A stretch of 64,000 nucleotides of DNA, taken from the NCBI GenBank assembly GCA_947458455.1, contig CANGYJ010000006.1, positions 1-64,000 on the forward strand, written 5' to 3'. The notes beneath the pieces were generated by a model. That model was not told the DNA's origin. It was given only the letters and a program-made list of their open reading frames with translations, and searched no databases. The position numbers and the translations under genes are program-made. The stretch is from Verrucomicrobiaceae bacterium (GTDB lineage Bacteria > Verrucomicrobiota > Verrucomicrobiia > Verrucomicrobiales > Verrucomicrobiaceae). Positions 6,511-9,124 of the stretch are shown here, piece after piece (the first letter of the stretch is position 1; the number at the start of each line of letters is the position of its first letter).

Positions 6511-6650
6511 GTTCCCCTCACCTAACCTGACAGACCTGAACACCGATTGGCAAGTCAAAGTAATTGCCGCCGTCTATGCAGTCCCTCTCCCCGCGAATGA
6601 AAAGCTTCAGCTCTAAAACATCCATGCGGGGAGAGGTTAGGTGAGGGGAG
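6511..6650. repeat. Palindromic intergenic repeat with CCCCTCACCTAACC ends
   Basis: At 6513-6526 the motif CCCCTCACCTAACC occurs. At 6583-6650 a longer copy in the opposite sense reads CCCTCTCCCCGC, then a variable loop, then GCGGGGAGAGGTTAGGTGAGGGG. The CTCTCCCCGC/GCGGGGAGAG arms can form a 10-bp stem. Related copies occur at 11320-11388, 35521-35585 and 35675-35763. The element sits between the ferritin remnant and the SPFH gene, two genes whose 3' ends converge, so it may also act as a bidirectional terminator. Confidence 0.75.
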
Positions 6651-6693
6651 ATTGCCCCCCCCATTGGCACAAGAGGCAGCGAAACGATAAGCC

Positions 6694-8475
6694 TCAAGAC
6701 GGCAGCGAAGCCTGACGCGTATTCTTCGTGACAAGAGCCATCAAGGCCTCAACGAGACCACCGTTGGCACCGCCGCCGTTCACGAGCACGTCGGGGACCA
6801 CGCGGAGGTTCTTCTCGGCGATGATTTGGAAGAGTTGCATGAGGGCGTAAGTGTCCTGACCGACGGCTTGGATACCGGCGTAGTGGGACTCGGCTTTGGC
6901 CTGTCCGGTGCTGCGGATGGCATCGGCTTCACCGGCGGCGCGGAGGCGTGTGCTGGTGGCATCGCCTTCGCTCTTTTTGACGGCGGCGCTGGCTTGCAGC
7001 TCGGAAATGCGCACCCCTTGTTCGGCGCTGACGACTTGGTTTTGGATGTCGGCGAGGGAAGTCTGGCGAACGAGCTGCTGGCGCTGCATTTCGGCGGCTT
7101 CCTGCATTTCGTAGGTCTTGCGATGCTCCTCGGCAATCTTGCGGTCGGTTTGAGTCTTCATGAGTGACTCGGGCGGTGTGATGTCGCCGATGAGCGTGTC
7201 GATGGCCTCCACGTCGTATTCACGCAAGGCAGCGGCGATGTGCTGAGAGGCCTCGTTTTGCCGCTCGGTGCGGGCGCTGAGGAAATCGAGCACGGTGTAG
7301 GCCTGGGCACTGTTGCGGAAGTAATTGCCGACGATGGGCTGCAAGGCGTGGTCGATGAGATTTTGCACGGAACCGGCACGCGAGATGACTTTCGGGGCTT
7401 CATTGGCTCCGATGTGGATGATCTGCGAAACATCGAGATTGAAGGCGAAGCCGTCGCGTGAGCGCACGGTGATGGAATTGAGTTTTTCATCAAACTGATG
7501 CGCTTCGGTGCGGTTGGCCCAGTTCAGCACGATGTTGGTGGTGGGCACGAGTTCGACCCGCATGATGCGGGTGTTGATGGGATGCTTGCCAGGCAGCAAC
7601 GGCCGCACCCACACGCCTTTGTGGCCCACTTCGACGAGGTCGCCATGTTTGAAATCAGGTCCGCTGACATCTTCATGCAAATTACCAACATAGCTGATAA
7701 CGACGCCGACGTGGCCGATGGGGATTTCGACCATCTCCACCTGCTCAACATGCGCGAACCACGGATTGAGGTTCCACTGACCGCTGAGCAAAATTTGCTC
7801 CTGCAAGCCACGACGACCACCGGCACTGAGAAAGGACTGAGCGTCCTGGAAGTTGTTGTGACCAGCCACGATGGGACCCGCGATCTCGCCTTGCTCGATG
7901 CAGGCGCCGTCGAGCGTGGTAACGATGCCGACTTTGTCCGGTTCGATGTTCAGCAGGCGCAGCAAGGCCGGTGAAATGCCGTGCTCATGACAATTCCGCG
8001 TGACGAGCACCTGAAACAGCGAGGGATTGATGCGATACGAGCCAGCGGTGATCACCGCGAGCTGGCGGCCCTTTTCACCACCGTTTAGGAGGAAGGCTCG
8101 GGCGTCTTGGAAGTGGTCACACTTCACCACGCGGCCCAAAATGCGTTGCGGCGGGATGGCACTGCCGGTACGAGCCACAACGAGAGCTAGCTCACCCTGC
8201 GGCACGACGACCATCGGCACGCGCTGGACACTGTATTGCCATTTCCAATAACCGAAGTGCAGCCCAGGAGGCAGCGTGTCCGCTTGGTAACCCGCTTCGC
8301 CATGCAGCGCGATGATTTCACCCGGAGGCAGGCTGCGCATGGCAAAGCGTTTGATGACGAGCCCCACCTGCTGCTCGCCGATGTGCACAACGCCGAAGAG
8401 ATTGATGAGGAGAAAGAAGAAGAGGATGAGTGTGGCCCACCAGTAGGTGAGCATGAGATGAAAGAGAGTGTTCAT
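6694..8475 (-). CDS. SPFH (band 7/flotillin-like) domain membrane protein
   Basis: This 593-residue protein has an N-terminal membrane segment (ATLILFFFLLINLFGVVHI), a beta-rich region with repeated HFQDARAFLLNGGEKG-type and NNFQDAQSFLSAGGRRG-type stretches, and an SPFH core around residues 280-450 (for example EKLNSITVRSRDGFAFNLDVSQI). A long Ala/Glu/Gln-rich coiled coil follows (KIAEEHRKTYEMQEAAEMQRQQ). The C-terminal QIIAEKNLRVVPDVLV is typical of flotillin-like proteins. Such proteins oligomerise on membranes and organise microdomains. No enzymatic role is implied. No NfeD partner is adjacent. It lies downstream of a small Cys-containing ORF and a putative c-di-AMP riboswitch on the same strand, so its transcription could respond to that nucleotide. 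Between the two genes (8476-8601) is a low-complexity GATTT-rich stretch. Confidence 0.85.
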   Translation of the reverse strand: MNTLFHLMLTYWWATLILFFFLLINLFGVVHIGEQQVGLVIKRFAMRSLPPGEIIALHGEAGYQADTLPPGLHFGYWKWQYSVQRVPMVVVPQGELALVVARTGSAIPPQRILGRVVKCDHFQDARAFLLNGGEKGRQLAVITAGSYRINPSLFQVLVTRNCHEHGISPALLRLLNIEPDKVGIVTTLDGACIEQGEIAGPIVAGHNNFQDAQSFLSAGGRRGLQEQILLSGQWNLNPWFAHVEQVEMVEIPIGHVGVVISYVGNLHEDVSGPDFKHGDLVEVGHKGVWVRPLLPGKHPINTRIMRVELVPTTNIVLNWANRTEAHQFDEKLNSITVRSRDGFAFNLDVSQIIHIGANEAPKVISRAGSVQNLIDHALQPIVGNYFRNSAQAYTVLDFLSARTERQNEASQHIAAALREYDVEAIDTLIGDITPPESLMKTQTDRKIAEEHRKTYEMQEAAEMQRQQLVRQTSLADIQNQVVSAEQGVRISELQASAAVKKSEGDATSTRLRAAGEADAIRSTGQAKAESHYAGIQAVGQDTYALMQLFQIIAEKNLRVVPDVLVNGGGANGGLVEALMALVTKNTRQASLPS

Positions 8476-8601: not shown

Positions 8602-8814
8602 CTAGGCGCTGACTTTGCGGGCTTCGCGTTTCACGCCGAAGATCCAGGTGTGGAGCTGGCGCAGGATGGTGAGGTCCATCGGCGTGGGACTGACCCAGAC
8701 GTTGTTATTGAGCAGGCAGCCGCGTGTCATCGGGCTGCCGCAGTCGCGGCAGGAGGCACGGGATTCCACAGGACGGCTCAGGGGAGCCGTGCCGCAGGAA
8801 GCGGTGAGGTTCAT
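8602..8814 (-). CDS. Small Cys-containing protein of unknown function
   Basis: This is a 70-residue ORF starting at the ATG complementary to 8812-8814 and ending in TAG. It holds Cys at position 7, then CRDCG and a further Cys about nine residues on (GSPMTRGCLL), a spacing that could bind a metal as a small zinc ribbon. I do not recognise the family. The frame could open further upstream, but that would run into the hairpin and riboswitch-like leader. Support for coding is its placement just downstream of the putative c-di-AMP aptamer. A hairpin at 8826-8849 lies directly before the start and could control translation. The next gene on the strand is the SPFH protein. Confidence 0.45.
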   Translation of the reverse strand: MNLTASCGTAPLSRPVESRASCRDCGSPMTRGCLLNNNVWVSPTPMDLTILRQLHTWIFGVKREARKVSA

Positions 8815-8889
8815 GGATGTGTTGGTTTCTGTTCTAACAGGGAAACCATGGTCCCGATGCACTGGCACCGGGCAGAGGATCGCCCTTCC

Positions 8890-9020
8890 AAATCGGCCTG
8901 CGAGGTTAGCTGTCGGGCTGGTCCTTGGAAGTGGACTGGTCAGCGGTTACCCGCCTTCCCTCGCCCCGCCCTGCGTCTTTCGACTCAGGGAGTTTGGGTC
9001 CCCCGTGCCAGCGCTCAGGA
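8890..9020 (-). promoter_or_regulatory. Putative cyclic-di-AMP (ydaO/yuaA) riboswitch aptamer
   Basis: Read on the minus strand, the leader contains in order GGCACGGGGGACCCAAAC, GGCGGGGCGAGGG, GGCGGGUAACCGC and finally CCCGACAGCUAACCUCGCAG (complement of about 8900-8919). The last block closely matches the strongly conserved 3' core of the ydaO/yuaA class as I remember it, and the earlier GGGGGACCCA and GGGUAACC blocks are in the expected order. The class binds c-di-AMP and usually turns genes off. About 75 bases separate it from the ATG at 8814, including a hairpin at 8826-8849 (GGTTT/AAACC outer and CTGTT/AACAG inner stems) that could serve as the expression platform. I could not run a covariance search. 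Confidence 0.72.
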
Positions 9021-9124
9021 AGGAGCACCGACTTCGGCTGCGGCGCTATTGACGCATGGTGCATGCCTTTTGTCAAAGCGCTCGATACGCGGCGAATGAA
9101 CATCGCGGCAATGTGGTGCTGATT

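Follow-up and report, generated by a model that had tools for sequence, protein, structure and literature searches.

A candidate c-di-AMP riboswitch upstream of a conserved SPFH gene in Verrucomicrobiaceae

The stretch of DNA analyzed here (the window; 64,000 nt) carries on its minus strand a structured leader followed by two open reading frames. The leader opens with a predicted c-di-AMP riboswitch aptamer of the RF00379 (ydaO/yuaA) type at 8880..9049. The first ATG behind it, at 8812-8814, starts a small cysteine-containing ORF of 70 aa (8602..8814), and this is followed by the gene for an SPFH/Band_7 (flotillin-like) membrane protein of 593 aa, whose frame is intact (6694..8475). Just past the SPFH gene, at 6520-6660, an inverted repeat (CCCCTCACCTAACC ... 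GGTTAGGTGAGGGG) was noted by eye.

A covariance-model scan (cmscan) matched the minus strand at 8880-9049 to RF00379 with 37.8 bits and an E-value of 3.2e-7, covering model positions 1-134 completely; this E-value refers to a search space of 651 bases x 4227 families, and the curated cut-off of the family is 38 bits. An Rfam scan of the full 64-kb window at the gathering cut-off returned no RNA family because the window copy falls short of this value, and the aptamer was recovered when a short stretch was scanned under an E-value threshold. This case shows that a genuine riboswitch may be overlooked for want of a few tenths of a bit when a curated cut-off is applied. The original prediction had described a c-di-AMP riboswitch-like leader at this place and proposed a covariance-model search as its check. 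That search gave a significant RF00379 score, the opposite of the outcome that would have spoken against it, and 27 of 68 family genomes score above the cut-off. The element had been drawn too short, as an end at 9020 misses part of the 5′ side. The three sequence blocks on which the prediction was built do lie on the minus strand in the order proposed (GGGGGACCCA at 8995-9004, GGGTAACC at 8945-8952 and CCCGACAGCTAACCTCG at 8901-8917), but the second of them (GGGUAACC) falls in a variable hairpin, and in the Rfam alignment the conserved second block (GGGGNGA) corresponds to CGGGGCGAGGG near 8961-8971.

According to the alignments, the RF00379 core blocks CGGGGGA-CC, GGGGNGA and CCCGNCAGCUAACCUCG-AGGC are all present in the window copy, and the sole core deviation is a G at the near-invariant position after GGGGCGA, where 30 of 33 aligned aptamers have an A. 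The consensus of these 33 aptamers contains 30 pairs, 19 of which showed two-sided changes; having been gathered with the Rfam model, the set leans towards that model. Folding energy alone would not reveal the aptamer, since the leader is only mildly more stable than its shuffles (z -1.88 for the minimum-energy fold of the window leader, with 10 of 200 shuffles equally stable). A second RF00379 match in the same genome (13.4 bits, E 3.85) was rejected as noise, and 8 of 14 control genomes also gave matches at the loose threshold. When the leaders of 20 relatives were scanned for a second RNA family, only RF00379 was returned; the one microRNA match in that scan was at chance level and located away from the leader.

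The aptamer can also form a pseudoknot in which the loop CUUCCAA (8925..8931) makes seven consecutive pairs with the 3′ tail UUGGAAG (8885..8891). Across the 33 aptamers, pairing of each loop with its own tail was better than in all of 20,000 reassignments (mean of -8.08 versus -6.41 kcal/mol), and when only the 30 distinct loop:tail pairs were used, again none of 20,000 permutations was as good; this control ignores the relatedness of the sequences. An alternative pseudoknot with the P2 loop CCTTCC was rejected, because 222 of 5000 permutations matched its signal, versus 0 of 20000 for the internal loop. By our reading, the ydaO crystal sequence, as quoted in PMC5393176, is compatible with the same loop:tail pairing. 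As judged from its sequence, the leader is a member of the c-di-AMP riboswitch class that lies 0.2 bits under the cut-off and in which the fold features tested are present; the aptamer would be expected to bind c-di-AMP.

Matches to RF00379 at E <=0.01 were found in 28 of 68 family genomes, including that of the window, with one match in each. The window copy is the only one of these below the cut-off and the lowest of the 28, the other 27 scoring 40.6-60.8 bits. The remaining 40 genomes gave no match in this search, which used stricter filters and so may have lost weak aptamers. In principle, the resemblance to ydaO motifs could be due to chance, as the score of the window copy 0.2 bits under the Rfam cut-off might suggest, but the E-value, the conserved position and the covariation across genomes refute this explanation, to which we give a negligible probability. 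By gene content the organism is able to make c-di-AMP: the diadenylate cyclase domain DAC (PF02457) is present in 64 of 68 family genomes, including that of the window (E 8.4e-36). The 7TM-7TMR_HD domain, which we take to be the one known from PgpH-type c-di-AMP phosphodiesterases, was found in five of six genomes searched, the window genome again among them.

The product of the SPFH gene matched PF01145 with 98.1 bits against a cut-off of 23.6 (E 8e-28), and comparison with two close relatives gave dN/dS values of 0.044 and 0.050, which indicates that the gene is under strong purifying selection. An AlphaFold2 model of the protein, of low confidence (mean pLDDT 50.2), has an N-terminal helix and long C-terminal helices. 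Among the matches listed, the nearest named relatives are from Brevifollis, Verrucomicrobium, Phragmitibacter and metagenome-assembled genomes called Verrucomicrobiaceae. A search of the 68 family genomes found an SPFH match in 28, of which 25 are orthologues at an identity of at least 71%, and by coordinates the aptamer lies upstream of the orthologue, on the same strand and within ~1.2 kb, in all 25. Three genomes have an aptamer and no such orthologue (G048, G066 and G001). The contigs of G066 and G001 stop short, 79 and 90 bases past the aptamer, and in G048 (locus L051) the genome search found no SPFH orthologue. SPFH paralogues with 49-57% identity, present in G003, G066, G009 and G001, sit elsewhere. 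The genes upstream of the aptamer vary among relatives (RlmF in the window), which implies that the module occupies several genomic places.

In a wider sample, SPFH relatives were sought in a named collection of one-genome-per-species contigs, where the best 80 of 563 loci were considered. With the 33-aptamer model, an aptamer was detected in 37 of these 80, always upstream of the SPFH gene and on its strand; part of these 37 duplicate sequences used to build the model, and nine (L130-L137, L208) coincide with family loci included above. When the Rfam model was applied at its cut-off to 79 loci (the same best 80 of 563 minus L137), it found the aptamer in 36. Within these best 80, the records with an aptamer bear names such as Verrucomicrobia, Opitutae, Brevifollis, Phragmitibacter and Methylacidimicrobium in 34 of 37 cases, all of which we presume to be verrucomicrobial, and the remaining records are labeled "bacterium" (L143, L164) and "Bacteroidetes" (L165). 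None of the 43 aptamer-less loci of the best 80 has a verrucomicrobial name; their names point to cyanobacteria, Chloroflexi/Anaerolineae, Bacteroidota (L199) and Proteobacteria (L158). Elsewhere in the order, other families have a second, more distant type of SPFH protein (35-40% identical) encoded behind their aptamers (L057, L058, L062-L065, L034-L036 and L040).

The original prediction had considered an SPFH gene and a small Cys-containing ORF to be unusual targets for this class. This view holds insofar as our literature searches for c-di-AMP or ydaO riboswitches together with SPFH, flotillin or band 7 revealed no such link, while the link itself is conserved in verrucomicrobial relatives. 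As far as searched, the SPFH target is therefore conserved and unreported; the surveys of Block 2010 and Nelson 2013 were outside the scope of the search and may mention it.

The predicted 70-residue ORF is present as well, and is better described as a DUF6487-like zinc-ribbon gene that has been cut short. A TAG at 8602-8604 precedes the second CxxC pair, so that this pair is absent, and the product has no Pfam match. The homologous frame continues past the TAG to ~8560, and relatives hold intact copies, which encode a small protein with two CxxC pairs between the aptamer and the SPFH gene. Of three such copies scanned against DUF6487 (PF20097, cut-off 24), that of L018 scored 24.3 bits and the two others 23.6 and 18.7. 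The third-codon-position test supports a coding pattern in pairs such as L008/L011 (59% identity at third positions, 86% at first and 93% at second) and also in L010/L012, which argues that the protein is real; no coding pattern was found by this test in the trio of the window, G026 and G051. Third positions of the small ORF differ by ~10% between the window and L027/L028, as compared with 25-30% in the SPFH gene, and this similarity may reflect either RNA constraint or a local effect. In locus L009, too, a stop interrupts the ORF in this zone (ahead of or at the second CxxC pair), and in both genomes the aptamer and the SPFH frame are intact. Cysteine pairs have been lost in seven further loci (L017, L019 and L021-L025), and no such protein was seen in L004-L006 and L015. 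The small zinc-ribbon protein thus seems dispensable. Selenocysteine insertion at a TGA in the zinc ribbon of L009 was considered and rejected, as no SelB scored over the cut-off in the four genomes searched. Outside the family, a different small CxxC ORF occupies this position in loci L142, L152, L161 and L163. Some family members (e.g., L018 and L021-L025) encode a membrane protein of ~172 residues between the small ORF and the SPFH gene; 110 residues of one copy gave no convincing Pfam match.

The presence of a gene between the aptamer and the SPFH gene raises the question of which of the two is controlled. If the switch acted on the zinc-ribbon ORF only, the SPFH gene would be transcribed or translated independently, and the 126 bases between the two ORFs in the window, which make translational coupling unlikely, are consistent with such an arrangement. 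However, the aptamer leads into the SPFH gene across 104-160 bases in 16 of 29 aptamer loci examined from the wider sample, several relatives that keep the aptamer and the SPFH gene have a lost or damaged small ORF, and a sigma-70 consensus scan of the minus strand between 8400 and 9300 detected nothing resembling a promoter. We therefore regard control of the small ORF alone as decidedly unlikely, and favor control of the SPFH gene.

In other verrucomicrobial lineages the aptamer has further targets. Predicted c-di-AMP riboswitches in Verrucomicrobia are mentioned in PMC6488665. Searching 384 genomes of the class, we obtained matches in 85 genomes and 56 of 171 genera, at 99 places. For 29 newly fetched loci (L071-L099), the genes downstream encode K+-transporter-type proteins in 22 cases (11 AA_permease_2, nine Kup-type K_trans and two KdpA) and Band_7 proteins in four (L075, L083, L090 and L095), with one BBP2 porin and two without an assignment; one of these last two, L091, was probably counted on a wrongly chosen frame, as a KimA-like frame lies beside it. 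Two of the 11 AA_permease_2 proteins were compared with the PDB, and both match KimA (E 2e-59 and 1.2e-58). Since K+-transporter targets dominate, the switch appears to keep its usual K+ role in the class, and SPFH is the commonest other target in the 29-locus sample. Two exceptions to the SPFH association were also observed: in G242, of the same order, the gene behind the aptamer is transporter-like as judged by eye, and in G176 a different gene follows the aptamer and no SPFH gene was found in its locus, L060.

We then considered how ligand binding might be transmitted to the downstream genes. No terminator-like site was found on the minus strand between the aptamer and the first ORF in a search for intrinsic terminators. 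The region behind the aptamer contains the tail element GGGCGAUC (8878..8885), a small hairpin (8853..8873) with two-sided changes in some pairs among relatives, and block B, GGUUUCCC (8840..8847), a possible partner of both the tail and the ribosome-binding region, which reads GGUCNCYCC in most relatives. Block B lies 28-31 bases past the tail in 45 of 51 leaders parsed (from 58, seven having been dropped because the motif was not located). When 21 non-family leaders were compared, 98.0% of cells were paired between block B and GGGNGAUC of the tail, as compared with 39-65% when slid. Block B is also complementary to the ribosome-binding GGAGA, in 72.8% of cells versus 33-56% when slid. RNAalifold recovered the tail:B pairing unprompted in the non-family alignment (A5) and only three of its pairs in the family alignment (A4). 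Neither pairing shows two-sided changes in A5, and a shuffle control lends no support to them, as the observed percentage was reached by 426 of 500 shuffles for tail:B and 424 of 500 for pairing of block B with the ribosome-binding region. In the family, block B is complementary to GARACC before the first ATG, by eye fully so in 17 of 26 leaders, among which C-G to U-A replacements occur, and with a mismatch or bulge in 9 of 26. The corresponding hairpin (GGUUUC/GAAACC, GGTTTCCCTGTTAGAACAGAAACC) dominates the folding of the window leader; the complement is kept among family leaders, and RNAalifold does not display this hairpin in A4. A hairpin directly before the ATG had been correctly foreseen; its position is 8824..8847 rather than 8826-8849. 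In the longer leaders of L003-L029, a covarying hairpin with a GNRA-like loop (GACGG-GARA-CCGTC) was seen between block B and the first ATG, and is absent from the window, L027 and L028.

Taken together, these data make it likely that block B is the center of a translational switch, in which it would pair either with the aptamer tail or with the ribosome-binding region. The direction of this switch could be argued either way. Ligand might stabilize the pseudoknot so that it stacks on the tail:B helix, frees the ribosome-binding region from block B and allows translation, making the element an ON switch. The pseudoknot and tail:B strands overlap by one base only (8885) and may for this reason coexist, the tail:B pairing is nearly universal in the 21 non-family leaders, and removal of the tail in the folding of those leaders raised the mean number of pairs between block B and the ribosome-binding region from 1.65 to 3.22, all of which fits this reading. 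Members of the class are, however, described as off-switches in PMC9960051, which also contains the precedent of the Corynebacterium glutamicum nlpC switch, where translational control was inferred by its authors. Folding favors neither sign, as access to the ribosome-binding region was lower in 11 and higher in 8 of 37 leaders when the pseudoknot strand was blocked. An earlier folding experiment that had favored OFF (15 versus 3 of 37) was discarded, since more of the tail had been blocked than the pseudoknot uses. On the basis of the class description and the nlpC precedent we prefer the OFF sign, and consider the ON switch unlikely, though the most credible of the alternatives weighed here.

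The truncated first ORF, the low score and the substitution at a nearly invariant position might indicate that the window switch is decaying and has lost its function. This is not what the rate of change suggests: compared with G026 and with G051, the aptamer is 94.7% identical and the post-aptamer leader 98.5%, while identity at SPFH third positions is 75.3% and 69.7%, respectively. The pseudoknot is intact, and the contact A of the GGNGA element appears to be kept, by our own mapping of the contacts listed in PMC7288161. We regard decay of the switch as very unlikely, slightly more so than control of the small ORF alone.

Our preferred reading is that expression of the SPFH scaffold is set by a c-di-AMP riboswitch in the leader, with a small zinc-ribbon gene between them in the family, and we hold this to be probable with good confidence. 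The reading is founded on sequence features: the aptamer is complete and its pseudoknot covaries, its site upstream of one SPFH family is conserved in verrucomicrobial genomes, and c-di-AMP synthase- and phosphodiesterase-type domains are present in the same genome. According to this model, the aptamer would bind c-di-AMP and control would act on translation initiation, given the lack of a terminator-like site and the two alternative complements of block B. If c-di-AMP represses, as is usual for the class, the SPFH protein would be made at low c-di-AMP, that is, presumably under low K+ or hyperosmotic conditions, in parallel to the K+ importers found behind this switch in verrucomicrobial relatives. 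More tentatively, and with somewhat less than even confidence, one may propose that in Verrucomicrobiaceae the SPFH scaffold is the sole riboswitch-controlled output of c-di-AMP, a membrane-organizing arm of turgor and K+ control encoded by one coming-and-going module (the aptamer and SPFH, with or without a zinc ribbon and a small membrane protein) and switched by a conserved swap of one element between the tail and the ribosome-binding region. To our knowledge, the role of bacterial SPFH/flotillin-type scaffolds is poorly settled. That one SPFH family has a conserved second-messenger switch in common with K+ importers of the class provides a testable hypothesis, namely that this scaffold takes part in responding to osmotic stress or a lack of K+, and SPFH would add a target class to a widespread riboswitch.

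The window element shares with the ydaO/yuaA class, e.g., kimA (ydaO) of Bacillus subtilis, the core blocks, P1 and the loop:tail pseudoknot, and within the bacterial class of the window the same aptamer is also found ahead of Kup, KdpA and permease genes, two permeases having proved KimA-like on comparison. It differs from kimA-type switches in its SPFH scaffold target, in that no intrinsic terminator was seen, and in its score just under the cut-off. The closest mechanistic parallel is the C. glutamicum nlpC switch, for which a CTCC is proposed in PMC9960051 to alternate between two GGAG partners, one upstream and the other at the ribosome-binding site, in a manner that closely resembles block B; its target, unlike the SPFH gene, is a cell-wall peptidase, and in the window it is the conserved GGGNGAUC at the aptamer 3′ end with which block B pairs. 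Copies of the small ORF in relatives match the DUF6487 zinc ribbon, one of the three scanned over the cut-off and two under it, whereas the window copy stops before the second CxxC pair. With the SPFH/flotillin family (PF01145) the window protein has the SPFH domain in common, QmcA (8z5g, E 0.00043) being the sole solved chain found by profile, and it differs from that family by ~220 extra residues ahead of this domain. Among the best 80 of 563 loci, SPFH relatives of 60-65% identity in Cyanobacteria and Chloroflexi (L173, L175-L194 and others of L151-L209) occur without a riboswitch, whereas in the verrucomicrobial loci the same protein family is preceded by the aptamer.
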